Source: Phormidium ambiguum IAM M-71 | Lineage (GTDB): Bacteria > Cyanobacteriota > Cyanobacteriia > Cyanobacteriales > Aerosakkonemataceae | Assembly (NCBI RefSeq): GCF_001904725.1 | Contig: NZ_MRCE01000005.1 | Span: forward strand, 66,269-130,268 | Length of the DNA stretch: 64,000 nt | Reading direction: 5' to 3' | Part shown: positions 7,690-22,590 of the stretch, piece after piece | Position numbering within the stretch: position 1 is the first letter of the stretch | Layout of the letters: each line of letters begins with the position of its first letter | Translations under genes and position numbers: made by a program | Notes under the pieces: generated by a model | Database searches by the model: none | The model's input: only the letters and a program-made list of their open reading frames with translations | Told to the model about the DNA's origin: nothing

Positions 7690-10600
7690 ATGCTCAATGC
7701 TATCCTTAAATGGTCGATCGCACGTCGCTGGATCGTTGTTCTCGGCGCGATTCTGGTGACATTTTTAGGTGCGTACAATCTCACCCAAATGCCTCTGGAT
7801 GTGTTTCCTGACTTTGCGCCACCGCAAGTTGAGATTCAAACGGAAGCGCCGGGACTTGCGCCGGAAGAAGTGGAAACTTTGATTACTTTGCCGATCGAAA
7901 GTGCAGTTAACGGTACCCCCGGAGTGGAAACGGTGCGATCGTCTTCTGCGGTGAGCATTTCGGTGGTTAAGGTAATCTTTAAATGGGGGACTGATGTTTA
8001 TCAAGCGCGTCAACTGGTAGCGGAAAGATTGCAGCAAGTTCAAGCAAAATTGCCGGAAGGGGTGGAAAATCCGCAAATTTCCCCGATTTCTTCAGCGATT
8101 GCTACAGTGATTCAGTATGCTTTTACTGCGGAAACTACGCCGTTGATGGAAGTTCGCCGCTTAGTCGATCGAGATATCAGCAACAGATTGCTAGCTGTAC
8201 CGGGTGTTTCCCAGGTGATTGCTTATGGCGGGGATGTGCGTCAGTACCAGGTTTTAGCCGACCCTGCTAAACTGAGAGCTTTCAATGTTTCTTTGGCTGA
8301 AGTTACGGAAGCAGTAAAAGGCGCAAATGTCAATGCTGCGGGTGGTTTTTTAATTAATCCTGACCAAGAGTTGATTATTCGGGGATTGGGGAGAGTTGAG
8401 TCGATCGAACAACTGGCAAAATCAGCGGTAACGGCGCGGAATGGTACGCCTGTTTTGTTGCAAGATGTGGCAGAAGTGAGGATTGGCGCAGCTTTGCAGC
8501 GTGGGGATGGCAGTTTGGATGGGGAAAGAGCGATCGTACTTTTGGTGAACAAGCAACCTCAATATGATACGCCAACTGTGACGAAAGCGATCGCCAAAGC
8601 AATGGAAGAAGTGAAGGCGGGATTACCAAAAGATGTGAAAGTTACGGAAACTTTCCGCCAACAAAACTTTATTGATTCAGCATTAGAAAATGTTACCAGT
8701 TCCCTAAGAGATGGCATCATTATTGTTTCGATTATCCTATTAATGTTTTTGATGAATTGGCGCACAGCTATTATTACTTTGAGTGCGATTCCTTTGTCAG
8801 TTTTGATTGGAATGTTGATTTTAAATTGGTTTGGTCAAGGTATTAATACAATGACATTGGGAGGATTAGCAGTGGCGATCGGATCTGTGGTGGATGATTC
8901 GATCGTAGATATGGAAAACTGTTATCGCGGACTGCGAAAAAACCAAGCATTAAATAATCCTTTGCATCCCTTTCAAGTTGTTTACGACACATCTGTAGAA
9001 GTGCGAGTCAGCGTGATTTTCTCTACAGTAATTATTGGGGTTATTTTCGCGCCGATTTTCTTTCTTACAGGTGTGGAAGGTCGGATTTTTACCCCGATGG
9101 GAGTTGCTTATTTAGTCTCAATTTTCGCCTCTACCTTTGTAGCAATGACACTTTCTCCAGCATTGTGCGCGATTTTGTTGGCGAATCAACGATTGAAAGC
9201 AGAAGATACTTGGGTAACAAGATTATCAGAATCACTTTATCGACCATTACTTAATTTTTCGATTCGTTTTCCCAGCATTATTCTACTAATTGCAGGTGCA
9301 TCTTTAGTCGCATCTTTAGTAATTTTGCCGAATTTAGGAAGGGTGTTTTTGCCAGAATTTCAGGAATCTTCTTTGGTAAATACAATACTTTTATATCCGG
9401 GAAGTTCTTTAGAAGCAACGAATCAAGCTGGATTAGCAATGCAAGATGCACTTAAAGGAGATAAACGTTTTACCTCTGTGCAGTTACGTGCGGGAAGAGC
9501 TCCGGGAGATGCAGATGCGGGAGGAGTAAATCTCGGACATTTGGATGTAGAACTGAGTAAAGAGGGATTAAGAGATCGGGAAAAAAGCATCGAAAAATTA
9601 CGCGAAGAGTTTGCCAAATTACCGGGAGTTGCATCTGGTGTAGGTGGATTTATTTCACACAGAATGGATGAAGTTTTATCGGGGGTGCGAAGTGCGATCG
9701 CCATTAAAATTTTTGGTGCAAATCTCGAAGAACTGCGACGCATTGGTACAGAAGTTCAATCAGCAGTAAATGACATTCCCGGATTAGTAGATTTACAACT
9801 TGAACCGCAAGTTCCGATTAGACAATTACAAATTCAGTTTAACCGAGAAGCTGCCGCTCGTTACGGTTTAACTGTGGGAAATCTCACCGAAATGGTAGAA
9901 ACTGCACTTAACGGAAAAGTCGTTTCTCAAGTTCTGAAAGACCAACAACTTTTTGATTTAATGGTGTGGTTAAAAGAAGATGCGCGAAGTAACTTAGATA
10001 CTATTAGCGATCTATTAGTAGACACTCCCACCAATCAAAAAATCCCCTTAGCGCAAGTTGCTAATATTGATTATGGCACAGGCCCAAACACAATTAACCG
10101 AGAAAATGTTTCCCGTTTGATTGTCGTTTCTGCTAATGTTTCCGGTCGAGATTTGGGATCTGTGGTAGAAGAGATTCAAAATAAAGTAAGTCAGTCAGTG
10201 CAGTTACCAACAGGTTACTTTATTCAGTATGGCGGACAGTTTGAATCCGAGCAACGAGCGACACAAAATTTGTTAGTGTTTGGCGGAGTTGCGATCGCCA
10301 TAATCGCTGTTTTAATGTACTTTGCTGTTAAATCTATAGCTGCAATGTTAATGATTATGATTAACTTACCATTAGCATTAGTTGGTGGAATTTTCTCGAT
10401 CGCTTTAGGAGGTGGCATAATTTCCGTTGCTTCCCTAGTCGGATTTATTACTTTGTTCGGAGTTGCTACCCGCAATGGTTTGTTATTAGTAGATAACTAC
10501 AACAACAAAATCGCCGAAGGAATGCCTTTAAAAACTGTGATTTTTGCAGGTTCAATGGAAAGATTAGTGGCGATTTTAATGACCGCTTTAACTTCAGCAT

Positions 10601-10809
10601 TGGGAATGATACCTTTAGTTATTGGTAGCGGTGCAGGTAAGGAAATTTTGCAACCTTTAGCGATCGTAGTGTTAGGCGGATTGTTTACTTCAACAGCATT
10701 AACTTTATTAGTTCTTCCAGCACTTTATTCTCAGTTCGGTAAATTATTAATCCCGAAACAAACTCAATCAGAGGATAAAGCTATTATAACCGATGGAGTT
10801 AAAGTCTGA
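7690..10809 (+). CDS. Heavy-metal RND efflux pump (CusA/CzcA family)
   Basis: 1039-aa inner-membrane proton/metal antiporter, full length for the HME-RND family. The N-terminus (MLNAILKWSIARRWIVVLGA), the porter-domain start (MPLDVFPDFAPPQVEIQTEA), the TM4 motif GSVVDDSIVDMENC with acidic residues for proton relay, and the C-terminal VATRNGLLLVDNYNN are all family-diagnostic. It would pump metal cations from periplasm or cytoplasm out through a TolC-like channel with the adaptor encoded upstream. The Uma2 gene and a DUF4351 remnant separate the two; an outer-membrane partner is not present in the window. Which metal is exported cannot be told. A strong ribosome site is not obvious before the ATG. 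Confidence 0.92.
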   Translation: MLNAILKWSIARRWIVVLGAILVTFLGAYNLTQMPLDVFPDFAPPQVEIQTEAPGLAPEEVETLITLPIESAVNGTPGVETVRSSSAVSISVVKVIFKWGTDVYQARQLVAERLQQVQAKLPEGVENPQISPISSAIATVIQYAFTAETTPLMEVRRLVDRDISNRLLAVPGVSQVIAYGGDVRQYQVLADPAKLRAFNVSLAEVTEAVKGANVNAAGGFLINPDQELIIRGLGRVESIEQLAKSAVTARNGTPVLLQDVAEVRIGAALQRGDGSLDGERAIVLLVNKQPQYDTPTVTKAIAKAMEEVKAGLPKDVKVTETFRQQNFIDSALENVTSSLRDGIIIVSIILLMFLMNWRTAIITLSAIPLSVLIGMLILNWFGQGINTMTLGGLAVAIGSVVDDSIVDMENCYRGLRKNQALNNPLHPFQVVYDTSVEVRVSVIFSTVIIGVIFAPIFFLTGVEGRIFTPMGVAYLVSIFASTFVAMTLSPALCAILLANQRLKAEDTWVTRLSESLYRPLLNFSIRFPSIILLIAGASLVASLVILPNLGRVFLPEFQESSLVNTILLYPGSSLEATNQAGLAMQDALKGDKRFTSVQLRAGRAPGDADAGGVNLGHLDVELSKEGLRDREKSIEKLREEFAKLPGVASGVGGFISHRMDEVLSGVRSAIAIKIFGANLEELRRIGTEVQSAVNDIPGLVDLQLEPQVPIRQLQIQFNREAAARYGLTVGNLTEMVETALNGKVVSQVLKDQQLFDLMVWLKEDARSNLDTISDLLVDTPTNQKIPLAQVANIDYGTGPNTINRENVSRLIVVSANVSGRDLGSVVEEIQNKVSQSVQLPTGYFIQYGGQFESEQRATQNLLVFGGVAIAIIAVLMYFAVKSIAAMLMIMINLPLALVGGIFSIALGGGIISVASLVGFITLFGVATRNGLLLVDNYNNKIAEGMPLKTVIFAGSMERLVAILMTALTSALGMIPLVIGSGAGKEILQPLAIVVLGGLFTSTALTLLVLPALYSQFGKLLIPKQTQSEDKAIITDGVKV

Positions 10810-12589: not shown

Positions 12590-12661
12590 GTAATAAGATT
12601 GGGGTGTTATTTCTACCAGTTAGGTAAAATAACAAGATCGCTTACTGGTAGGAGGGGAAGG

Positions 12662-13555
12662 ATGTCACACAAAAAATCACCAGATGTTGATACAAACCGT
12701 GAAAATTCCTTGACAGAGCTTTTTATCAAACCACCCAGGCTTTCTAGTAGGGGAAAAATATGGAATGGGATCGGTTTAGAACAGCACTATCTACCACCAG
12801 GAGAAACTCCTGAATATTCTCTGGAAAAATTTGCTATCACTATTAATCTTGGTCAGAGTTTTCAGATAGAAAGAATTATCGATCGACATCTGCAAAAAGG
12901 TTTAATGTTTACGGGTGCTGTAGGATTTTGTCCGCCGAACACTTCTCAAGTAATTCGTTGGAATAGAGATACTAACATCTTGATAGTTAGTTTAGAAGAT
13001 GAATTACTGAGCAGTCATGCTGTAGAGTTATTGGGTACAGATCAATATGAAATGTTCCCTCATTTGATTACACAAGATGCTTTGATTTATCAAATGGGAT
13101 TGAAACTTCAGGAACAGCTGAAAACTAATAGTTCAGATAGCCGTCTTTATGTTGAATCTGCTGCTACATTTTTGGCTGTTCATATTTTGCAAAATTACTC
13201 AATTCAAAAAGCTTTCATCCGGGAGTATGCTGGGGGTTTACCCAAACATCAGTTAAAACAAGCAATTGATTATATCCAGTCTCATTTAACACAGGAAATT
13301 TCCCTGGATGCGATCGCCAATTATCTCGGCATCAGTCGCTATCATTTTTGTCGTTTGTTTAAACAATCTACTGGTTTGAGTCCACATCAATATGTGATTC
13401 AACAGCGAGTAGAACGAGCGAAACAACTATTAAGGAGAGGTAAGTTGAGTATTGCTGAAACTGCGATCGCTTGTGGTTTTAACCATCAAAGTCATCTCCA
13501 TCGCCACTTTAAACGGTTAACTGGTACTACACCAGGAAGTTTTCTCAATTCTTAG
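12662..13555 (+). CDS. AraC family transcriptional regulator
   Basis: About 297 aa from the ATG at 12662, which follows a strong AGGAGGGGAAGG ribosome site; an earlier TTG at 12599 is unlikely. The N-terminal half (residues 1-190) is an effector-sensing region of the type common in cyanobacterial AraC/PchR-like proteins. The C-terminal 100 residues hold the two helix-turn-helix motifs: EISLDAIANYLGISRYHFCR and KLSIAETAIACGFNHQSHLH, then the family signature FKRLTGTTPGSF. The first of the repeated operators begins at its stop codon (13553-13555) and two others flank the peptide and exporter genes, so it is the natural candidate regulator of the island. Effector unknown; autoregulation is not evident. 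Confidence 0.9.
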   Translation: MSHKKSPDVDTNRENSLTELFIKPPRLSSRGKIWNGIGLEQHYLPPGETPEYSLEKFAITINLGQSFQIERIIDRHLQKGLMFTGAVGFCPPNTSQVIRWNRDTNILIVSLEDELLSSHAVELLGTDQYEMFPHLITQDALIYQMGLKLQEQLKTNSSDSRLYVESAATFLAVHILQNYSIQKAFIREYAGGLPKHQLKQAIDYIQSHLTQEISLDAIANYLGISRYHFCRLFKQSTGLSPHQYVIQQRVERAKQLLRRGKLSIAETAIACGFNHQSHLHRHFKRLTGTTPGSFLNS

Positions 13556-13729: not shown

Positions 13730-13948
13730 ATGTTTCCTAAACCCTCGAAACCAACTTTATTACAGCCTCACCTTGATGCTTTTCAATTACATCAGTTAGC
13801 GATCGAGTTAGATCAAAATAGTGAAGAAAGTTGCACAGGAGGTAGCTTTACCGGAGGAGATATTATTATTACCAAATTTAATCATCCCTCAAATACAGTC
13901 AACTCATCTACCTACTATAGAATTCGTAGTATTCCCACTTTGATGTAG
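13730..13948 (+). CDS. Double-glycine leader peptide 1
   Basis: 72 aa. Residues 1-38 form a hydrophilic leader with spaced leucines (LHQLAIELDQNSEESCTGG) ending in Gly37-Gly38, the cleavage signal of C39-peptidase exporters. A second Gly-Gly (FTGGD) follows five residues later. The predicted released part after Gly38 is 34 residues, rich in Asn, Ser, Thr and Tyr, with no Cys. It is the first peptide gene after the AraC operator. The last eight codons (RSIPTLM and stop) are duplicated as a fossil at 14809-14831. Export by the ABC transporter at 15881-18025 is inferred; the peptide's activity is unknown. Confidence 0.8.
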   Translation: MFPKPSKPTLLQPHLDAFQLHQLAIELDQNSEESCTGGSFTGGDIIITKFNHPSNTVNSSTYYRIRSIPTLM

Positions 13949-14017
13949 GTTTTTGATCTGATACAATCTTACGCGATCGTCGAAGACAAATCCTAGTTGA
14001 ATTCAAGGAGTTAAAAG

Positions 14018-14224
14018 ATGTTTAATAAGCATTCAAACAAAAGCGCCTCTAAATCATCTTTAAAAGATGTACCTGGAAATGAAATGATGGTGGAATTAAC
14101 AGATAACGATGAAGAATCATTGTCTGGTGGAGCTGAACTTATAGCTACTACGCCTTCAAGGTTTGGATTGCTCCTTGCAAAACCTACTGCGCTAGTACTG
14201 CTCTTTGCTAATCCTTTTGCTTAA
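14018..14224 (+). CDS. Double-glycine leader peptide 2
   Basis: 68 aa with a good ribosome site (AAGGAG before TTAAAAG). Leader residues 1-38 end MMVELTDNDEESLSGG, with Gly-Gly at 37-38, the same leader length as peptide 1. The 30-residue core is strongly hydrophobic (FGLLLAKPTALVLLFANPFA), unlike the other cores, and could insert into membranes in the manner of a class II bacteriocin. That activity is an inference from composition only. No neighbouring modifying enzyme is present. Confidence 0.82.
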   Translation: MFNKHSNKSASKSSLKDVPGNEMMVELTDNDEESLSGGAELIATTPSRFGLLLAKPTALVLLFANPFA

Positions 14225-14256
14225 GGTCGATCGCATTTACAGGAGATTAATCTATT

Positions 14257-14433
14257 GTGGTTAAATCACCGAAAAACCAAACATTGCCATTAGATCAAAG
14301 CTTGTACCAAGAAATTTCTGAAGTTGCAGCTAGTCAGTACCAAGGAGGAGCAATTTCTAATGAATTAACTCAGGTTGTTCAACAAAAATCTGTTGTTCCT
14401 TCTCAAACAAAAATAATTATCTTCGCTGCATAG
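14257..14433 (+). CDS. Double-glycine leader peptide 3 (short-leader subfamily, GTG start)
   Basis: 58 aa starting at a GTG that follows AGGAG by 11 bases. The leader LPLDQSLYQEISEVAASQYQ ends in Gly30-Gly31 and closely matches the leader of peptide 10 (18525-18716), so the two form a second subfamily with a 31-residue leader. The 27-residue core is Gln/Val/Ile-rich and lacks Cys (ends TKIIIFAA). The leader pattern leaves little doubt that it is a real gene despite its size. Confidence 0.75.
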   Translation: MVKSPKNQTLPLDQSLYQEISEVAASQYQGGAISNELTQVVQQKSVVPSQTKIIIFAA

Positions 14434-14536
14434 CAAGTAGCTTTTCTTTGAATTACTAACTTGCAGTTTCAACTCTGTTTAAATTGGATGAGTCGATCGG
14501 CAATTGCAGCAGTTAAATAAAAAAAGGGAGGTAACA

Positions 14537-14562
14537 GTTAACTGGTACTACACCAAGAAGTT
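14537..14562. repeat. Duplicated fragment of the araC-type gene 3' end
   Basis: GTTAACTGGTACTACACCA plus RGAAGTTT at 14537-14562 repeats 13516-13541, the codons for LTGTTPGSF at the end of the AraC gene, with one mismatch. It lies just upstream of peptide 4 and is not translated as part of any recognisable gene. It marks an old duplication of the araC-tail-to-peptide segment. Confidence 0.75.
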
Positions 14563-14596
14563 TAATCCTAAGCAATAAATATAAGGAGAAGAGATC

Positions 14597-14767
14597 ATGA
14601 TTCATAACGAAGTTTCCACAAATCATCAGCTAACTGAAAATTCTCTTTGGTTCAATCTCGATGAACTTGATGAGGAATCCCTGTCAGGAGGAGCAGTAGA
14701 GGGTGAGCTAGCCTGGAGTATTGGTTTTAGCGATGCTTTCCGTGCTCCTAGTAACAGCAGCACCTAA
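14597..14767 (+). CDS. Double-glycine leader peptide 4
   Basis: 56 aa, ATG preceded by AAGGAG with 10-base spacing. The leader NSLWFNLDELDEESLSGG ends in Gly31-Gly32, with the LDEESLSGG end shared in style with peptide 2. The core is 24 residues (AVEGELAWSIG, then FSDAFRAP, then SNSST) and contains no Cys. It is bracketed by fossils of the AraC gene tail (14537-14562) and of the peptide 1 tail (14809-14831), so it arose by duplication of the unit that begins at 13516. Confidence 0.78.
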   Translation: MIHNEVSTNHQLTENSLWFNLDELDEESLSGGAVEGELAWSIGFSDAFRAPSNSST

Positions 14768-14808
14768 TCCTTATAAAGGATGCGATCCTGGTACTTGTTG
14801 TTGAGTTT

Positions 14809-14831
14809 TGTAGTATTCCGACTTTAATGTA
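14809..14831 (+). pseudogene. Remnant of a peptide 1-like gene end
   Basis: GTAGTATTCC-ACTTT-ATGTA matches the end of peptide 1 (13927-13949) over 23 bases with three differences. It is not joined to a leader in frame. It is what remains of the original 3' end of the duplicated copy whose core region was replaced by that of peptide 4. Confidence 0.6.
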
Positions 14832-14844
14832 AAGGAGACTCAAA

Positions 14845-14931
14845 ATGAGAAAAATCACTGCTAAACCTGAGTTAGCAGTGTTTTCCTCAAAACCAAAAGA
14901 AATTGTTGTTGTCGGTTCAAAAATTCGTTAA
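14845..14931 (+). CDS. Possible 28-aa peptide without Gly-Gly motif
   Basis: ATG with a well-placed AAAGGAG seven bases upstream and a 28-residue reading (MRKITAKPELAVFSSKPKEI, then VVVGSKIR). It is basic and has no Gly-Gly. It sits between peptide 4 and peptide 5 in the same direction. It could be a truncated peptide gene or a short leader ORF. Only the ribosome site and the position support it. Confidence 0.35.
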   Translation: MRKITAKPELAVFSSKPKEIVVVGSKIR

Positions 14932-14953
14932 TCGAGCTTTAGGAGTTAAAACA

Positions 14954-15151
14954 ATGATTAATTTATTCTCCAAAAAATCAGCATCGCAGGTTAATTTAGA
15001 TAAGATTTCGTCAGAGAAACTGATTGAAAATTTGGACGAAACACGGGAGGAGTTTTTGGCAGGAGGTGCGAATAAATTATTTGTTGGCAACCTTAGCTTT
15101 AATAGCGCTCAACAGGCTGCTGTTACTAATTTCATTTTAATCATTGATTGA
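14954..15151 (+). CDS. Double-glycine leader peptide 5
   Basis: 65 aa from the ATG at 14954, which has TAGGAG in the correct position; a longer reading from 14903 adds residues that do not fit the leader family. The leader ends LIENLDETREEFLAGG with Gly37-Gly38. The core has 27 residues (ANKLFVGNLSFN, then SAQQAAVTNF, then ILIID) and is amphipathic with a hydrophobic end. Its 3' end and the following leader box resemble those at the end of peptide 7, showing that the pair 5-6 and the pair 7-8 are copies of each other. Confidence 0.82.
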   Translation: MINLFSKKSASQVNLDKISSEKLIENLDETREEFLAGGANKLFVGNLSFNSAQQAAVTNFILIID

Positions 15152-15202
15152 TGCCTCGCATCTACCAAGCATTCAATCAAAACTGACAAAGGAGTAAAAT
15201 TA

Positions 15203-15361
15203 ATGATTCGCAAGCCTTTAACCAAACAAGCTCCTAAGACTGTTTTAGATAGCGATCGATTGCCAGCACTAGTGACAGATTTAGCTGAAACTCAGGAAGG
15301 AGCGATCGTCGGTGGAAAAGCAGAATATATTAGTCCCATTCGATCGACATTCACGTTCTAG
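15203..15361 (+). CDS. Double-glycine leader peptide 6
   Basis: 52 aa with AAAGGAG seven to eight bases before the ATG and the CATCTACCAA box in its untranslated leader. Residues 1-38 end LVTDLAETQEGAIVGG (Gly37-Gly38). The core is only 14 residues (KAEYISPIRSTFTF), among the shortest in the cluster. The absence of Cys and of any nearby modification enzyme suggests a linear, unmodified released peptide, perhaps a signal rather than a toxin; this is inference. Confidence 0.78.
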   Translation: MIRKPLTKQAPKTVLDSDRLPALVTDLAETQEGAIVGGKAEYISPIRSTFTF

Positions 15362-15428
15362 ATTGGTGAATTTTCTGAGCACAATGTCCATATACCAATC
15401 AATCAAAACTCATAAAGGAGTACGACCA

Positions 15429-15626
15429 ATGTTATATCAGCCTCCAACTAAAAAAACCTCAAAATCCAATTTAAATGCTTTTAAGCAACCTGTACTATGG
15501 CAAGAGTTGACTAACAATCAACAGGAAGCAATTCAGGGAGGAACATTTGATGTTTTTACTAAAGTTGTACAAAAAGAGGACAATCTGATCTCTCAGCATG
15601 GGTATTTCTTTGTAATCCTTCATTGA
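15429..15626 (+). CDS. Double-glycine leader peptide 7
   Basis: 65 aa from the ATG at 15429 after AAGGAG. An upstream in-frame extension to 15312 overlaps peptide 6 and is rejected. The leader ends VLWQELTNNQQEAIQGG with Gly37-Gly38. The core has 27 residues (TFDVFTKVVQKEDN, then LISQHGYFFVILH), mixed charged and hydrophobic. The untranslated leader is a diverged copy of the AATCAAAACT...AAGGAGT leaders before peptides 6 and 8. Confidence 0.8.
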   Translation: MLYQPPTKKTSKSNLNAFKQPVLWQELTNNQQEAIQGGTFDVFTKVVQKEDNLISQHGYFFVILH

Positions 15627-15863
<237 letters not shown>

Positions 15864-15880
15864 GGTACATTTCTGATTAA

Positions 15881-18025
15881 TTACGGATTCAAAAAATCCA
15901 AATGTTCTCCCGGAAGCTGTCTCAACTCTTCCGGTGTTCCTGTTAGTTTCAATTCACCTTGATCTAACAAAATAATCCAATCTGCTCGTTGAATTACTCT
16001 GGGACGATGGCTAATAATAATTGTGGTTTTGCCTTGACGATAAGCTAAAAGTCGGTTTAAAACTTCGGTTTCGGTGACAGGATCGAGTGCGCCTGTTGAT
16101 TCATCTAAAATTAGCACAGGTGGATCGGTGACAATGCCACGAGCGATCGCTAATCGTTGTCTTTGTCCCCCCGAAATATTAGCGCCAAACTCTCCTAAAA
16201 CAGTTTTGTATTTATCAGGTAACTGACTAATAAATTCATCTGCACCAACGATTTGACAAGCAATAACAATTTGTTCAAAACTTACTTGTGGATAACTAAA
16301 CCGAAAATTATCCACAATTGAACGACTCCAAAAATGCGGTTCTTGTGGCACTAAAATCACCTGCCATCGGAGACACTCTAAAGAAACATCCTGTAGATTA
16401 TAAGCCCCAAATCTAATATTTCCAGATTGGGAAGAATATAAACCAGCAATTAGCTTGGCTAGGGTACTTTTACCACAACCAGATTTACCAATTAATGCCG
16501 TAACTTTTCCCCCTGGAATTGTGACTGAAAAATCTTTGAGTAACGCTACTCTACCAACATGATGGAAATTGAGGTTAGTACAATTAATTTCGACATTACT
16601 CGCAATTTCTACCCATTCTTTTTGAGTATCTTCTGAGCTTTCTGGTGTAGCATCAATGATGTCATTTAAACGCTGAGTCGCTGTTTTTGCTCTAGCAAAT
16701 TCATCCATAAAATTGATTTGGGTGTTAATAAAGTTGGTAAAATTGCGATTCACAGCGTTAAAAGCTAATAATTGACCAATAGTTAGATCTTGGTTAATTA
16801 CTAAAACACTGCCAAACCAAAGAATAGCAATGCTACCAATCCCAGAAATTAAGCTAGAAAAAACATTGTTAATAATGGCAATTTGTAGTAACCTTAATGT
16901 CACATTAGCTAATCTACCTAAACGACCTTGCATTTCGTCCCAAGCTTGGGGTGCGGCGCTGGAAGCTTTCAGAGTTAATGCACCTTTGAAAGTTTCGATT
17001 AAAACACCTTGATTTTCCGAATCTGTGACTAAAACATCACGGGTTTTTTGTTGCAGTGCGGGTAAGAATATGAAGGTAGAAAGAGTCATTAAACCAGCTA
17101 AAATAATGGCTGCTACTGTTAGTTTCCAACTGTAGGTTAGCATTAAAATCAAAGATAAAAAAGCAATAAATAATCCGCTTGGTAAGCTGATGATTACTTG
17201 TGAAACTAATAGATTAACTTCCCGAATATCTCTCAGGCGACTGACTATTTCTCCACTGCGATGAGATTCGTAATAAGTCAAAGGTAGTTGTAAAATTTGT
17301 TGAGCAAATTCTAAGGCTAAACCTAATTCTAATCTTTGGGCGAAGTGAGCAACTAAATAAGATTGAACTAATTGTAATACATTGCTGAAAACGATCGCCA
17401 CCATCACCCCAATAGCCACAACAGTTAATAACTGCAAATCTCCTCTAACTATTACCTCGTCGGTAATAATTTGGATTAAAATTGGTAGAGCGAGGGAAAG
17501 AATGCCAATTGCTAAGTTTAATAGCAATACTTCTGCGAGAAGTCCTTGATAGTTCCAAACTCGTTTGAGGAAGCGGGAAAAACCGGAAATGCGATCGCTC
17601 TTTTGGGCATAAAAACGGTCTTCATCTATTACTAAAAGTAACATGACACCGTTTGTCCATCCTTCCATTAATCCTTGCTTGGTTAAATAGCGAATACCCA
17701 CTCCGGGATCGGCGACAATATATTTATTTCTCCGTTGTCCGTATAAAACAACCCAGTGATAACCTTTCCAATGAATAATTGCAGGTAATGGGACTTCATT
17801 TAGGCGATCGATCAACTCAGGAGATGCTTTGACTGAACGAGTATCAAATCCTAAACTTTCCGCACCTCTTCTTAATCCTAAAAGAGTTGTGCCTAACTGT
17901 CCGGTACCCACTGCTTCTCTGACGCGAGAAATCGCAAATTTTCGCCCGTAATATTGAGCAATGGTAGCGAGACAAGCAGCACCACAATCTTCTTCACTAT
18001 GTTGGATAGTAATTGGATATTTCAT
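15881..18025 (-). CDS. C39-peptidase ABC exporter for double-glycine peptides (PCAT)
   Basis: 714 aa with three parts in order. First is an N-terminal C39 peptidase (catalytic Cys14 in EEDCGAACL, His90 in WKGYHWVVLYG, Asp106 in VADPGVG) that cuts leaders after Gly-Gly. Second is a six-segment ABC membrane domain (about 155-440). Third is an ATPase domain with Walker A GKSGCGKST near 513-521, signature NISGGQRQRLAIARG and Walker B VLILDEST. This is the bacteriocin/peptide exporter architecture, the family of cyanobacterial PteB. It converges with the first peptide series and diverges from the second, with operator site 3 in the divergent promoter. It would act with the HlyD protein at 18882 and an outer-membrane TolC-like protein not found here. 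Confidence 0.93.
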   Translation of the reverse strand: MKYPITIQHSEEDCGAACLATIAQYYGRKFAISRVREAVGTGQLGTTLLGLRRGAESLGFDTRSVKASPELIDRLNEVPLPAIIHWKGYHWVVLYGQRRNKYIVADPGVGIRYLTKQGLMEGWTNGVMLLLVIDEDRFYAQKSDRISGFSRFLKRVWNYQGLLAEVLLLNLAIGILSLALPILIQIITDEVIVRGDLQLLTVVAIGVMVAIVFSNVLQLVQSYLVAHFAQRLELGLALEFAQQILQLPLTYYESHRSGEIVSRLRDIREVNLLVSQVIISLPSGLFIAFLSLILMLTYSWKLTVAAIILAGLMTLSTFIFLPALQQKTRDVLVTDSENQGVLIETFKGALTLKASSAAPQAWDEMQGRLGRLANVTLRLLQIAIINNVFSSLISGIGSIAILWFGSVLVINQDLTIGQLLAFNAVNRNFTNFINTQINFMDEFARAKTATQRLNDIIDATPESSEDTQKEWVEIASNVEINCTNLNFHHVGRVALLKDFSVTIPGGKVTALIGKSGCGKSTLAKLIAGLYSSQSGNIRFGAYNLQDVSLECLRWQVILVPQEPHFWSRSIVDNFRFSYPQVSFEQIVIACQIVGADEFISQLPDKYKTVLGEFGANISGGQRQRLAIARGIVTDPPVLILDESTGALDPVTETEVLNRLLAYRQGKTTIIISHRPRVIQRADWIILLDQGELKLTGTPEELRQLPGEHLDFLNP

Positions 18026-18243: not shown

Positions 18244-18474
18244 TTGTCTCATGAAATTTGGATCAAAAATTCCCCAAAGGCTGGAGTTCAAACAACTCAG
18301 GTAGAAGGATTAGTTCTTGATTTAACTGAACAGGAACAAGAAATGATTTCTGGTTTCGGAGGACGCGACGATGGTTGGGCATCTGAGATTAAAATAACAG
18401 TTCAAAGCCCAGAATTACAGAAAAAGTGGCTTGTTTCTAATTTTAGGTATGAACTTTCAGATTTAACACCTTAA
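18244..18474 (+). CDS. Double-glycine leader peptide 9 (TTG start)
   Basis: 76 aa, the longest of the set. It starts at TTG, supported by AAGGAG nine bases upstream and by the position of the leader motif. The leader VLDLTEQEQEMISGFGG has Gly39-Gly40 after an ISG, so the cut could follow residue 40. The 36-residue core is charged (RDDGWASEIKI, then TVQSPELQKKW) and Cys-free. It is the first gene of the second peptide series, which runs into the HlyD gene. Confidence 0.75.
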   Translation: MSHEIWIKNSPKAGVQTTQVEGLVLDLTEQEQEMISGFGGRDDGWASEIKITVQSPELQKKWLVSNFRYELSDLTP

Positions 18475-18524: not shown

Positions 18525-18716
18525 ATGTCCAAAAAATCAAAAGAACAGTTATTACAGTTGGATAAACGCTTGTATCAGGAAATTTCGGAAATCGAAGCTA
18601 GTAATTGGAAAGGAGGAACTTTGTCAGTGCATGAACTAGGTCATGCGTTGGGAAGACCACATATAAATCAATCAACCCCTTTGATAGCAAAAGCTTTAGT
18701 TAATAATGAAAACTAA
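18525..18716 (+). CDS. Double-glycine leader peptide 10 with HExxHxxGxxH core
   Basis: 63 aa, GAGGAAAT before the ATG. The leader LLQLDKRLYQEISEIEASNW ends with Lys29 and Gly30-Gly31, and is homologous to the leader of peptide 3. The 32-residue core begins TLSVHELGHALGRPHINQ: it contains the complete metzincin zinc signature HExxHxxGxxH (His36, Glu37, His40, Gly43, His46). The peptide is far too short for a protease fold. The motif may have been captured from a matrixin-type gene or selected for metal binding. Its last codons overlap the start of peptide 11 by 11 bases, implying coupled translation. Confidence 0.8.
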   Translation: MSKKSKEQLLQLDKRLYQEISEIEASNWKGGTLSVHELGHALGRPHINQSTPLIAKALVNNEN

Positions 18717-18861
18717 TTCAACAATTCAATCAAATCTTTGGCAAGATCTCAGTGAAAGTCAGCAGGAGTTTTTTAAGGGAGGAATGCTGAGAAAACAGGA
18801 TAAATCGCTTAGTCCAGGCGGTGGGGGAGTAAACGAAATTAAGTTTAATGATGGCAATTAA
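18706..18861 (+). CDS. Double-glycine leader peptide 11
   Basis: 51 aa, overlapping the end of peptide 10 by 11 bases and thus probably translated by coupling. A short leader (LWQDLSESQQEFFKGG) puts Gly-Gly at 25-26, the shortest leader in the cluster. The 25-residue core is MLRKQDKSLSPGGGGVNEIK, ending in FNDGN. Twenty bases separate it from the HlyD gene, tying peptides 9-11 and the exporter partner into one transcript. Confidence 0.78.
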   Translation: MKTNSTIQSNLWQDLSESQQEFFKGGMLRKQDKSLSPGGGGVNEIKFNDGN

Positions 18862-18881: not shown

Positions 18882-20465
18882 ATGACAACAGAAATAAATT
18901 TGGATTCCGTTCTTAAAACCGAATCAAAAAGTCAATATCAGGTGAATCCCAGTTTTCTCCAAACTGCTAAAGCGGATGAATTTTTACCTCCTATTAGTAG
19001 ATGGGCAATTGTTGGCGGATTGTTATTAGTTGGAACAATGGGAACAGCGATCGCTTATGCGGCGATCGCTCCCTACAATGTTACTGTAAAAGCTCCCGCT
19101 ACAGTTCGTCCTGCGGGAGAACTTCGGATTGTGGAAGCGGCGACAGCGGGAATAGTTAAACAAATTGCAGTTAAAGAAAATCAGGTAGTTAAACAGGGAG
19201 AGGCGATCGCTTTTCTAGATTCCTCACAACTTTTAACTAAACAAAGTCAACTCGAAGGAAATATTCAAAGTTACCAACTCCAATTAAATCAAATTTCTGC
19301 TCAAATCAACGCTTTAGAAAATCAATTAACCGCCGAAAATCGAGCTATTCAACGCACAATTGCTTCTGCTCAAGCTGATTTAAGCCGCAAACAAAAAGAG
19401 TATCAAGAACAAAACACTAGCGTACTTACAGAAGTGCAAGCAGCTGAAGCGAACTTGAAATTAGCTGAATCAGAATGGCAAAAATCTCAGGAAGATTTAC
19501 AGAAAGAACAAGCAAATTTACAAACAGTTATTGCTAATTTAAAAGCAGCTGAAGCTAGTTTAAAAGCCGCAATTTCTAAACTTAATCGCTATTCACCTTT
19601 ACGAAAATCTGGGGCAATTTCCCTGGATTTACTGGAAGAAATTAAGCTGGCGGTTGACCAACAAAATCAAGCAGTCACCGGACAAAAAGCTGCTTTAGAA
19701 GTACAAAGAAAAGTAGTTGAAAGCCAAAGTAAAACTGTGGCGAGACAAGAACAAGCGGTAGCTGTAGCCAAAGCTAAATTAATCGGAATTCAAGCTACTC
19801 TTAATCCTAGTAATGCAGCAGTTGTGATTGCTTCCGAACGAATAGCGGAAGAAAAAGCTAAAGGTGAAGCAACTTTAGCGAATTTAAATAAAGAACGCGA
19901 AGCTTTAGTCCAGCGTCGGGTGGAAATTCAAAATCAAATTAATCGAGATCGCCAAGAACTGCAACAATTAAAAGAAGATATTAAAAAAACTATTGTGCGT
20001 TCTCCTGTAAGCGGAACAATTTTTCAATTGAACTTACGAAATTCAGGACAAAATGTAGAATCAGGGACAACAATTGCTCAAATTTCTCCTAGTTCTGGTA
20101 AGTTAATTATTAAAGCTAAAGTAGCGGCTCAAGATATTGGAAAAATTGCGTTAGGACAAAAATCTTTAATGCGAGTTTCTGCTTATCCTTATCCTGATTA
20201 TGGAGTTTTGTCTGGAAAAGTAAGTGCGATCGGTCCTGATACTGTGATTCCGCAAAATAATACTATTGCTCAAACTCCTTCATATTATGAAGTAAATATT
20301 CAACCGGAAAAAAGTTATTTATTTAAAGGCGATCGAACTAATGAATCAGGTTGTTGTCAGTATCCAATTCAACCAGGAATGGAAATAACAGCAAATATTA
20401 TTACTCATCAAGAAACCATACTCTCATTTCTGCTCAGAAAAGCTCGGTTGCTCGCAGATATATAA
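18882..20465 (+). CDS. HlyD family periplasmic adaptor of the peptide exporter
   Basis: 527 aa. A short cytoplasmic N-terminus is followed by one membrane segment (AIVGGLLLVGTMGTAIAYAA, about 43-63), a lipoyl half (VKAPATVRPAGELRIVEAA), a very long alpha-hairpin coiled coil (about 115-370) with Gln/Glu/Lys-rich heptads, then the second lipoyl half (TIVRSPVSGTIFQLNL) and beta-barrel. This is the adaptor for a type I secretion complex, bridging the C39 ABC exporter to an outer-membrane channel; PteA plays this part in the Synechococcus peptide system. It directly follows peptides 9-11, and its stop codon overlaps a possible start of the response regulator gene. Confidence 0.92.
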   Translation: MTTEINLDSVLKTESKSQYQVNPSFLQTAKADEFLPPISRWAIVGGLLLVGTMGTAIAYAAIAPYNVTVKAPATVRPAGELRIVEAATAGIVKQIAVKENQVVKQGEAIAFLDSSQLLTKQSQLEGNIQSYQLQLNQISAQINALENQLTAENRAIQRTIASAQADLSRKQKEYQEQNTSVLTEVQAAEANLKLAESEWQKSQEDLQKEQANLQTVIANLKAAEASLKAAISKLNRYSPLRKSGAISLDLLEEIKLAVDQQNQAVTGQKAALEVQRKVVESQSKTVARQEQAVAVAKAKLIGIQATLNPSNAAVVIASERIAEEKAKGEATLANLNKEREALVQRRVEIQNQINRDRQELQQLKEDIKKTIVRSPVSGTIFQLNLRNSGQNVESGTTIAQISPSSGKLIIKAKVAAQDIGKIALGQKSLMRVSAYPYPDYGVLSGKVSAIGPDTVIPQNNTIAQTPSYYEVNIQPEKSYLFKGDRTNESGCCQYPIQPGMEITANIITHQETILSFLLRKARLLADI

Positions 20466-20503
20466 TGAAGGTAGTTGAGCGATCGAGTTTTATATTTGAT
20501 TTT

Positions 20504-21199
20504 ATGAGAGTTTTGCTAGTCGAAGATGAGCCAGATTTAGGTGCAGCGATTAAGCGAATTTTGCAGCAAGAAAAGTATGTGGTTGATTGGGTGCAAAATG
20601 GGATAGAAGCCTGGAATTATTTATCAGATGAACAAACACAATATACTCTGGCGATCTTTGATTGGTTATTACCAGGAATTTCAGGATTAGAGTTGTGCAA
20701 AAAAGTGCGATCGCAACGCAATTCTTTACCAATTTTAATGTTAACAGCTAAAGATCATGAACAAGATAAAGTTGCTGGATTAGATGCTGGCGCAGATGAT
20801 TATTTGGTGAAACCTTTCGGAATGGCGGAACTTTTGGCGAGGTTAAGAGCACTGCAAAGGCGATCGCCTCAACTCCAACCCCAAAAACTAACAGTTGGAA
20901 ATCTAAGTTTAGATTACAGCACTCGCACTGTTTGTTTTCAAAATAGTAAAGGTGAAAATCAAGTTATTTCTCTCACTACTAAAGAGTTTCAACTGTTGGA
21001 ATATTTTATGAAACATCCTAACTTTGTTCTTAGTACCGATCAAATTCGGAATCAGTTGTGGGAAATGAGTGCAGAACCTATTAGTAATGTTGTGGCGGCG
21101 CAAGTACGTTTATTGCGGCGCAAATTAGCTGCTAGCAATTGTCCTGATTTGATTGAAACTTTACATGGTATGGGATATCGTTTCAACCCTAATTTATGA
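20504..21199 (+). CDS. rppA: OmpR/PhoB-type response regulator, RppA-like
   Basis: About 231 aa from the ATG at 20504 (MRVLLVEDEPDLGAAIKR); a start at 20465 overlapping the HlyD stop is possible but adds a non-conserved extension. The receiver domain shows the acidic pair VEDEPD, the phospho-acceptor in TLAIFDWLLPG (Asp near 53) and the Lys in LVKPFG. The C-terminal winged helix (about 130-231) binds DNA. The sequence resembles cyanobacterial RppA/NrsR proteins. The gene is in the same direction as the peptide-exporter operon and overlaps its kinase gene, so it is likely to be cotranscribed. Whether it controls the peptides or a separate redox/metal response is open. Confidence 0.88.
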   Translation: MRVLLVEDEPDLGAAIKRILQQEKYVVDWVQNGIEAWNYLSDEQTQYTLAIFDWLLPGISGLELCKKVRSQRNSLPILMLTAKDHEQDKVAGLDAGADDYLVKPFGMAELLARLRALQRRSPQLQPQKLTVGNLSLDYSTRTVCFQNSKGENQVISLTTKEFQLLEYFMKHPNFVLSTDQIRNQLWEMSAEPISNVVAAQVRLLRRKLAASNCPDLIETLHGMGYRFNPNL

Positions 21200-22590
21200 A
21201 TCAAAATAAACTATTTAACCGAACTCGCACTCGCTTGGCTTTATCTTATGCTGGAGTGATGGGAATAATTTTAAGTTTGTCGGGATTTGGTGTTTATGAA
21301 GCGATCGCTCATGCTCATCGTGTAGCGATCGATCGTGAGTTAGAATCTGTAGCTGGAACTCTTCATGACAGCATTGAATTAAAGTTAAAACAACCCGGAG
21401 TTTTAGAACCGATTATTAAGGAACTTTTACCCAATCTCTGTTTAACAAGATCTAGTTGTATAACAGAGAAGGTTCGTTCTTCTCATCACGTTCTCAGTGC
21501 TATTAATCAAGGGAATTACTATATTCGATTTTTTGATACTTCAGGACAATTAATTGGTATAGCTGGTACTCATCCAGAGGGTTTACCGTTAGTTCTAAAT
21601 AAAGAGAAATGGCAAAATCTTCAAGATAGTAAAGGTAATTTTCATCATCAAATTACTATATCCTTGCATACCCGCGATTATCGTGATTGGGGATACTTTC
21701 AAGTCGGGCGCAGTCTCAAAGATTTGAATGAGTACCTCAATAATGTTAAATGGATTATGAAATTAGGATTACCAACCACGTTGATTTTAGTAGCTGTTTC
21801 TAGTTGGTGGTTAGCAGGTTTAGCAATGCAACCAATTTACCAATCTTACAGACAAATCCAACAATTTACAGCCGATGCTGCCCATGAGTTACGCACACCT
21901 TTGGCCGCAACACAGGCAACCATAGAATCTGCACATTCAATATCTAATTTGGATGAAAAAGAAATTCAAGAAATTCTCGAAACGATCGCTCGACAAAATC
22001 GCAGATTAATCCAATTAGTCGCTGATTTGTTACTCTTAGCGCGTTTAGAACAGCAAGCTACGCCAAAGCAATTTCAAGTTTGTTGTTTAGATGATATTAT
22101 TGGTGATTTAGTTGAAGAATTTGCGGCTTTGGCTATTTCAAAATCAGTAAACTTAACTGCTGATATTCAAGTTAATAAGTCTTTGAAAGTTATGGGTAAT
22201 GAAGAACAACTTTATCGCTTAGTTTCTAACTTAATTATTAATGCTATTCAATACACTCCCGCTAAGGGTCAAGTAACAGTTATATTAGATAGTATTGACA
22301 ATCAAGCTTTAATTCAAATTCAAGATACAGGTATTGGTATTCCACTTGTTGAACAAAAACGAATTTTCGATCGCTTCTACCGCGTCAATAGCGATCGCTC
22401 TCGTCACACAGGCGGATCGGGATTAGGATTAGCGATCGCTAAAGCAATCATTCAATCCCACAAAGGCAGCATACAATTACAAAGTGAATTAAACAAAGGT
22501 AGCACTTTTACTATTAAATTACCCTTAGAAAATACAGTACAAAAAAGCGATCGGGCAAACTACCCCTTTTACCTAAAATGGTTCTCCTAA
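21196..22590 (+). CDS. rppB: Sensor histidine kinase, RppB-like
   Basis: 464 aa. ATGA overlap with the response regulator stop shows translational coupling. A first membrane segment (about 14-38), a periplasmic sensing region (about 40-180) with two Cys (NLCLTRSSC) and a second membrane segment (about 186-208) lead into the HisKA box DAAHELRTPLAA (His about 233) and an ATPase domain (N box LIINAIQYTPAKG, G1 DTGIGI, G2 HTGGSGLGLAIAKAI). This layout matches RppB/NrsS-type kinases. The Cys pair in the sensor domain could respond to redox or metal. It is followed by a hairpin terminator at 22605-22629, which closes this transcription unit. Confidence 0.9.
   Translation: MNQNKLFNRTRTRLALSYAGVMGIILSLSGFGVYEAIAHAHRVAIDRELESVAGTLHDSIELKLKQPGVLEPIIKELLPNLCLTRSSCITEKVRSSHHVLSAINQGNYYIRFFDTSGQLIGIAGTHPEGLPLVLNKEKWQNLQDSKGNFHHQITISLHTRDYRDWGYFQVGRSLKDLNEYLNNVKWIMKLGLPTTLILVAVSSWWLAGLAMQPIYQSYRQIQQFTADAAHELRTPLAATQATIESAHSISNLDEKEIQEILETIARQNRRLIQLVADLLLLARLEQQATPKQFQVCCLDDIIGDLVEEFAALAISKSVNLTADIQVNKSLKVMGNEEQLYRLVSNLIINAIQYTPAKGQVTVILDSIDNQALIQIQDTGIGIPLVEQKRIFDRFYRVNSDRSRHTGGSGLGLAIAKAIIQSHKGSIQLQSELNKGSTFTIKLPLENTVQKSDRANYPFYLKWFS

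Follow-up and report, generated by a model that had tools for sequence, protein, structure and literature searches.

A metzincin-like zinc motif in a cyanobacterial double-glycine peptide from an array of cores resembling pieces of conserved proteins

The window analysed here, 64,000 nucleotides of the Phormidium ambiguum IAM M-71 genome, holds a set of double-glycine (GG) peptide genes with a shared leader and an adjacent exporter, and several of the peptide cores can be identified by sequence comparison as short pieces of conserved proteins that recur in related genomes, move between peptides and appear constrained in their amino acids. In our reading, the locus encodes a set of exported peptides, an arsenal whose cores imitate parts of conserved cellular proteins and probably interfere with neighbouring cells; we give this reading a probability of about 0.5.

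Eight of the 11 Gly-Gly peptides in the cluster are encoded at 13730-15863, behind an AraC-family regulator gene (12599); the gene for the C39 peptidase-ABC transporter (PCAT) diverges from the peptide gene at 18525, which lies upstream of hlyD (Table 1). Read by eye, the Cys, His and Asp of the C39 peptidase are all present in the PCAT, and plasmid homologues 58-67% identical to it are annotated as peptidase domain-containing ABC transporters. Most peptide starts have AGGAG or GAGG some 8-10 nt upstream. The leaders of the window peptides have a GG end preceded by hydrophobic and acidic positions, and six are exactly 38 residues long and align without gaps; a leader HMM gave 1e-9 to 1e-18 for nine window peptides, all nine of which are in the model, and 1e-4 for the 18706 peptide, which is outside it. 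Curated bacteriocin precursor families returned no match for the 18525 peptide, no NHLP or Nif11 model was listed for the window peptides, and NF038167 (CTB) reached at best 13.6 bits against a cut-off of 32, for two of them. Judged by leader and exporter, the 18525 peptide appears to belong to the known PCAT/GG-peptide kind. On either side of the peptide cluster are genes for an RND pump that resembles the heavy-metal type and for a paired response regulator and histidine kinase (7690-10809 and 20351-22590).

Table 1. Features of the peptide cluster, with positions in the window.
Feature	Position	Strand	Basis and remarks
AraC-family regulator	12599-13555	+	PF12833, 4.5e-27; homologues beside most related clusters
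GG peptide ending in thioredoxin cis-Pro loop IRSIPTLM	13730-13948	+	Module also in L152, L187, L188, L193
GG peptide, ATP synthase c subunit-like end (ALVLLFANPFA-stop)	14018-14224	+	NCBIfam PRK07354, E 0.037, reaching last model position
GG peptide, eCIS-core-like NELTQVVQQ, GTG start	14257-14433	+	Leader type as in 18525
GG peptide, module EGxLAWSIxFxD	14597-14767	+	Common to L187, L188, L190, L195, L208 and the 175-residue protein
GG peptide, RRM RNP2-like core KLFVGNLSFNS (weak)	14954-15151	+	PDB RNA-binding protein 3, E 0.16
GG peptide, 38-residue leader, short core KAEYISPIRSTFTF	15203-15361	+	ORF and leader
GG peptide, 38-residue leader, core FDVFTKVV	15429-15626	+	L189 and L217 have FDAFTK
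GG peptide, photosystem I FX-loop core (12-residue stretch, 15807-15842)	15681-15863	+	PF00223, E 2.4e-9
PCAT, C39 peptidase-ABC exporter	15881-18025	-	EEDCGAAC, HWKGYHW and ADP motifs, read by eye
GG-type peptide, TTG start, module RDDxW...RQK/ELQKKWLV.NF	18244-18474	+	Shared with L189:10195 and L192:9524
GG-leader peptide gene with zinc motif	18525-18716	+	ORF and translation; 31-residue leader, 32-residue core
Zincin motif HELGHALGRPH (metzincin-like module)	18630-18662	+	Residues H36-H46; Pfam Matrixin
Module STPLIAKAL	18672-18698	+	Identical in L189:9666; SSPLLAKAL in L217:6349; weak Hcp resemblance
GG peptide, VgrG/gp5-like core SPGGGGVNEIKFNDGN	18706-18861	+	PF22178, E 0.13; related modules in L190 and L192, best E 0.019
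HlyD-type export adaptor	18882-20465	+	By position and sequence type, not by profile; 40-65% identical adaptors in most related clusters

The clearest source protein is that of the 15681 core, which corresponds to the FX iron-sulfur loop of photosystem I and is the sole module to pass a curated threshold. Its DNA matches the genome's own psaB at 87% over 52 nt (E 7e-10), and its ends, counted against the own psaA and psaB, are psaA-like on the 5' side (16/18 nt) and psaB-like on the 3' side (17/18 nt); the FX-loop module (PsaA/PsaB) occurs in three peptides in three genomes, the window's included. Taken singly, matches other than PsaA/PsaB are weak, at E 0.002-0.3 without correction for the 49 and 19 cores in the scans, and they depend on recurrence. 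Among them are the thioredoxin module, found in five genomes (TIGR01068, E 0.0046 for L193), the AtpE C-terminus (best profile E 0.0094; the own atpE ends in SLVLLFANPFAG), the VgrG/gp5 module GGGxNEI(K/R) (Gp5_trimer_C, best E 0.019, with two Gp5/VgrG matches), an eCIS-core module HELTHVVQQ (E 0.017), a PsbJ-like module GRIPIWIV (E 0.014, assigned to the L217 core TGRIPIWIVS from an aggregate table) and a P-II module, KKIEVIIRPFKLD, starting at residue 2 (E 0.088, top PDB matches being cyanobacterial P-II). Resemblances to Hcp (TIGR03344, E 0.068, for the L189 core that carries STPLIAKAL) and to a porin (LQEEFAAEL, E 0.16) are weak, and several modules have no known source protein. As controls, 30 shuffled cores gave no NCBIfam match and one Pfam match at 0.083, and 40 ordinary cyanobacterial GG cores gave none below 0.038 except a known RiPP family. 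In the PDB, phmmer gave no match to the VgrG-like or the AWSIRFGD module; searching the own genome with concatenated modules turned up little besides atpE and the window peptides; and two window peptides used as queries against 72,556 plasmids retrieved no related peptide, only matrixin and psaB themselves.

Other GG precursors were seen alongside these. In Phormidium tenue FACHB-886, three GG peptides at L216:4491-8382 carry LLLPAVQGAREAARR, TPIKTFFCPSRR and SDGSVRFLKSS, which resemble three separate motifs of DUF1559/SBP_bac_10 proteins; the Pfam scan did not list that family. The GG cores of 80-110 residues at L088 and L092 resemble whole beta-gamma-crystallin domains, and L065, L066, L067 and L097 hold KYPSD-repeat GG precursors of a known protease-inhibitor RiPP type, with Pfam Inhibitor_I10 found for two such cores.

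The distribution of modules indicates that they are swapped between peptides. STPLIAKAL, thioredoxin and VgrG modules stand behind differing leaders and partners; L190:2552 joins eCIS-core and VgrG stretches, L193:9935 joins P-II and thioredoxin, and the C-terminal half of the 18525 product, STPLIAKALVNNEN, matches L189 (FDAFTK...DKSTPLIAKALCSN) and L217 (FDAFTK...DKSSPLLAKALSNNE). The nine residues of STPLIAKAL are identical in L189:9666 despite seven synonymous nucleotide differences. Across modules, pN/pS was 0-0.14 against 0.6-1.1 in the flanking core, from few pairs with high synonymous change; compared with the rest of the same core it was 0.00 against 0.74 for FX, 0.13 against 0.58 for thioredoxin and 0.08 against 0.88 for AtpE, and most other modules followed the same pattern. 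Borders for these three were set from the source proteins, and those of the AWSI, WAKC and porin modules were chosen by eye for conservation. The low values could also come from repeated overwriting, or gene conversion, by host genes. A protein of about 175 residues without a Pfam match is encoded beside clusters at L062:1484-2017, L152:3574-4062, L191:327-854 and L192:12634-13170; it holds the LAWSIRFGD, IRGTLIL and VLLFANPF modules shared with GG peptides, and at its start it looks like part of the neighbouring AraC regulator.

The main alternative is that these are captured coding fragments without mimicry, new cores arising by illegitimate recombination with host genes and the products serving as generic secreted peptides, for example at surfaces or in biofilms, like EbfG. 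Two-fragment mosaics such as that of L193 and the PsaA/PsaB chimera do look like recombination, and PCAT-exported EbfG peptides act in biofilm formation (PMC4997328). However, module amino acids are conserved against strong synonymous change while the adjoining core drifts, and distant genomes share the same small set of modules; we consider this account rather unlikely.

When several hundred genomes of the order were searched by leader, such peptides turned up in only about 15, and a class-wide leader search made almost no additions, so the peptide family is rare. Most such peptide sets are accompanied by a PCAT 72-77% identical to the window's, an AraC regulator (47-71%) and an HlyD adaptor. 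A genome-wide scan found PCATs of 70-77% identity in Tychonema, Atlanticothrix, Phormidium tenue, Mojavia, Coleofasciculus and UBA genomes, among which peptides with recognizable modules were seen in UBA8803, Tychonema and Atlanticothrix. L192 and L213 are the same locus, as are L188 and L219, and each pair should count as one.

The 18525-18716 product has 63 residues, MSKKSKEQLLQLDKRLYQEISEIEASNWKGG as leader and TLSVHELGHALGRPHINQSTPLIAKALVNNEN as core, split after Gly30-Gly31. The first-pass annotation had described a complete HExxHxxGxxH in a 32-residue core behind this Gly-Gly, and the ORF translation bears out both points, with the motif at residues 36-46. The gene looks real, because a GAGG Shine-Dalgarno-like site stands about 10 nt before the ATG, its 3' end overlaps the 18706 peptide gene by 11 nt and hlyD then follows; the leader scores 1e-9 against the leader HMM, of which it is itself a part, and an Rfam search returned nothing. 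Matrixin (PF00413) is the best Pfam match of the core, at E 0.0016 and below the curated cut-off, and tblastn of the peptide against the 72,556 plasmids had a single match, an annotated matrixin gene (E 0.5, 37.5% identity). HExxHxxGxxH is common to the core and to metzincins (matrixin, archaemetzincin), whereas the Met-turn and catalytic domain of more than 120 residues are theirs and are absent from this product, whose core has no Met. Resemblance to the metzincin helix spans about 15 residues, and the remainder (STPLIAKAL) is another module; an MMP16 alignment extending to residue 55 was dropped, that part being the separate module. Given the missing Met-turn, the 32-residue core and the short helix-like stretch, the predicted product cannot be a protease. 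These 15 or so residues are all that remains of the fold, as would be expected of functionless protease-gene debris, against which stand the intact leader, the ribosome-binding site and the 3' overlap with the following gene of an operon-like array; we regard debris as extremely unlikely.

We then asked how far the motif exceeds chance and where it came from. With core composition taken into account, HExxHxxGxx[H/D] is expected 9e-5 times in 77 related cores (1.5e-5 in the window's own cores) and was seen twice independently, in the 18525 peptide and in L192:9086 (UBA8803), so HELGHALGRPH does not appear to be a chance product. The shorter HExxH occurs in four peptides against 0.024 expected. 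L192:9086, STMVHEIGHAHGRGHA, is the only other full-motif peptide; it reads HEIGHAHGRGH, keeping every zinc-ligand position, and its motif stretch, DISTMVHEIGHAHGRGHA, has matrixin as best Pfam family (E 0.0069, below the curated cut-off). These counts and the second peptide weigh against a chance or out-of-frame product non-homologous to metzincins, a reading that draws on the sub-threshold matrixin match and on a 28/33-nt match of the core DNA to an out-of-frame stretch of a gene read as argC in related genomes, and that we judge very unlikely.

The first-pass suggestion of a protease-gene fragment captured by the leader agrees with the general protein-fragment pattern, of which it would be one instance, but no DNA donor is proven for this core. 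A donor search of the own genome gave short matches only, some in metzincin genes, the best simple metzincin match being 20/23 nt; a matrixin gene in a relative matches the core DNA at 24/25 nt, and the argC stretch scores equally well. One genus-mate genome gave no good match to the peptide (best E 0.87).

The motif had also been taken to suggest zinc binding by a metallophore, sensor ligand or inhibitor, which the related peptides leave unsupported. Three other peptides, window 14257, L190:2552 and L193:9688, share the YQEISE..GG leader type of 18525, and their cores open with NELTQ, HELTH and HEVDH; not every member of this subfamily keeps the zinc ligands. Conservation is divided: both full-motif peptides keep every zinc-ligand position, and among peptides with the YQEISE leader or zincin-like cores HELxH is replaced by NELTQ, NELTH or HEVDH, with ligands lost or altered. 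Because related zincin-like cores lack the first His, a metallophore role for the 18525 peptide is unlikely. The broader proposal that the peptides are zinc or iron-sulfur metallophores or sensors, through the zinc motif and the FX-loop Cys pair, could appeal to the intact ligands of the two full-motif peptides and to the flanking RND pump, which resembles the metal-efflux type, and two-component system. Neither of these gene sets was found at related clusters, however, and most modules (AtpE C-terminus, thioredoxin cis-Pro loop, P-II N-terminus, porin) bind no metal, which together with the altered relatives makes the proposal highly improbable.

Under the arsenal reading, the genes of the array would encode double-glycine precursors that the neighbouring C39 peptidase-ABC transporter and HlyD adaptor cleave and carry out of the cell, with the conserved leader as export signal. 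Each core would consist of one or two short stretches copied from conserved proteins, ultimately through gene-fragment capture, the modules later being swapped between peptides and retained by selection on amino-acid sequence; in the 18525 core, a metzincin's zinc-binding helix would come first and the STPLIAKAL module after it. Once released, the cores may mimic pieces of cellular machines and hinder the genuine proteins or their partners in nearby cells, acting as a bacteriocin-like arsenal.

Class II microcins (see PMC10233263 and PMC9746304) share the Gly-Gly leader, the C39 exporter with adaptor and the small peptide cargo of the window cluster. The window peptides have no family match among them, and no immunity gene was identified for the window cluster. 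Cyanobacterial GG-precursor/C39-ABC 'bacteriocin' clusters, like the window cluster, combine a PCAT and HlyD with arrays of short double-glycine precursors whose cores vary greatly. Wang, Fewer and Sivonen (2011), in the portion of the text available, describe those cores as diverse and little conserved; the window-type cores differ in being recognizable pieces of other proteins that recur as swapped modules (PMC3140520). EbfG1-4/PteB of Synechococcus elongatus is likewise a cyanobacterial system of GG peptides with a C39 ABC exporter; a biofilm role is demonstrated there, and the available part of its account mentions no protein-fragment cores (PMC4997328). A literature search, with subscription papers largely outside its reach, found no description of GG cores made from protein fragments. 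Cores that are recognizable, recurrent and constrained pieces of conserved proteins are thus the new aspect, and apparently an undescribed way to build a secreted peptide.

In the laboratory, inhibitory fragments or interfering peptides, short pieces of a protein, could disturb the full protein or its partners (for a review, see PMC7002299). Here such fragments would be natural, encoded and exported. It is possible, if doubtful, that nature has its own 'interfering fragment' system in this locus, which would capture, shuffle and retain short conserved pieces of essential proteins (photosystem I, ATP synthase, thioredoxin, P-II, injection-system parts, zincins) and export them as peptides that work by mimicry.

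Gly-Gly peptides are very common in cyanobacteria and mostly have no assigned function. In this family the cores name their own likely targets or sources, among them the PsaA/PsaB FX loop, AtpE and thioredoxin, so that function can be tested directly with short synthetic peptides. If the cores do interfere by mimicry, bacteria would already be employing inhibitory protein fragments encoded in their own genomes, and the locus would illustrate the making of new peptide cores out of existing genes.
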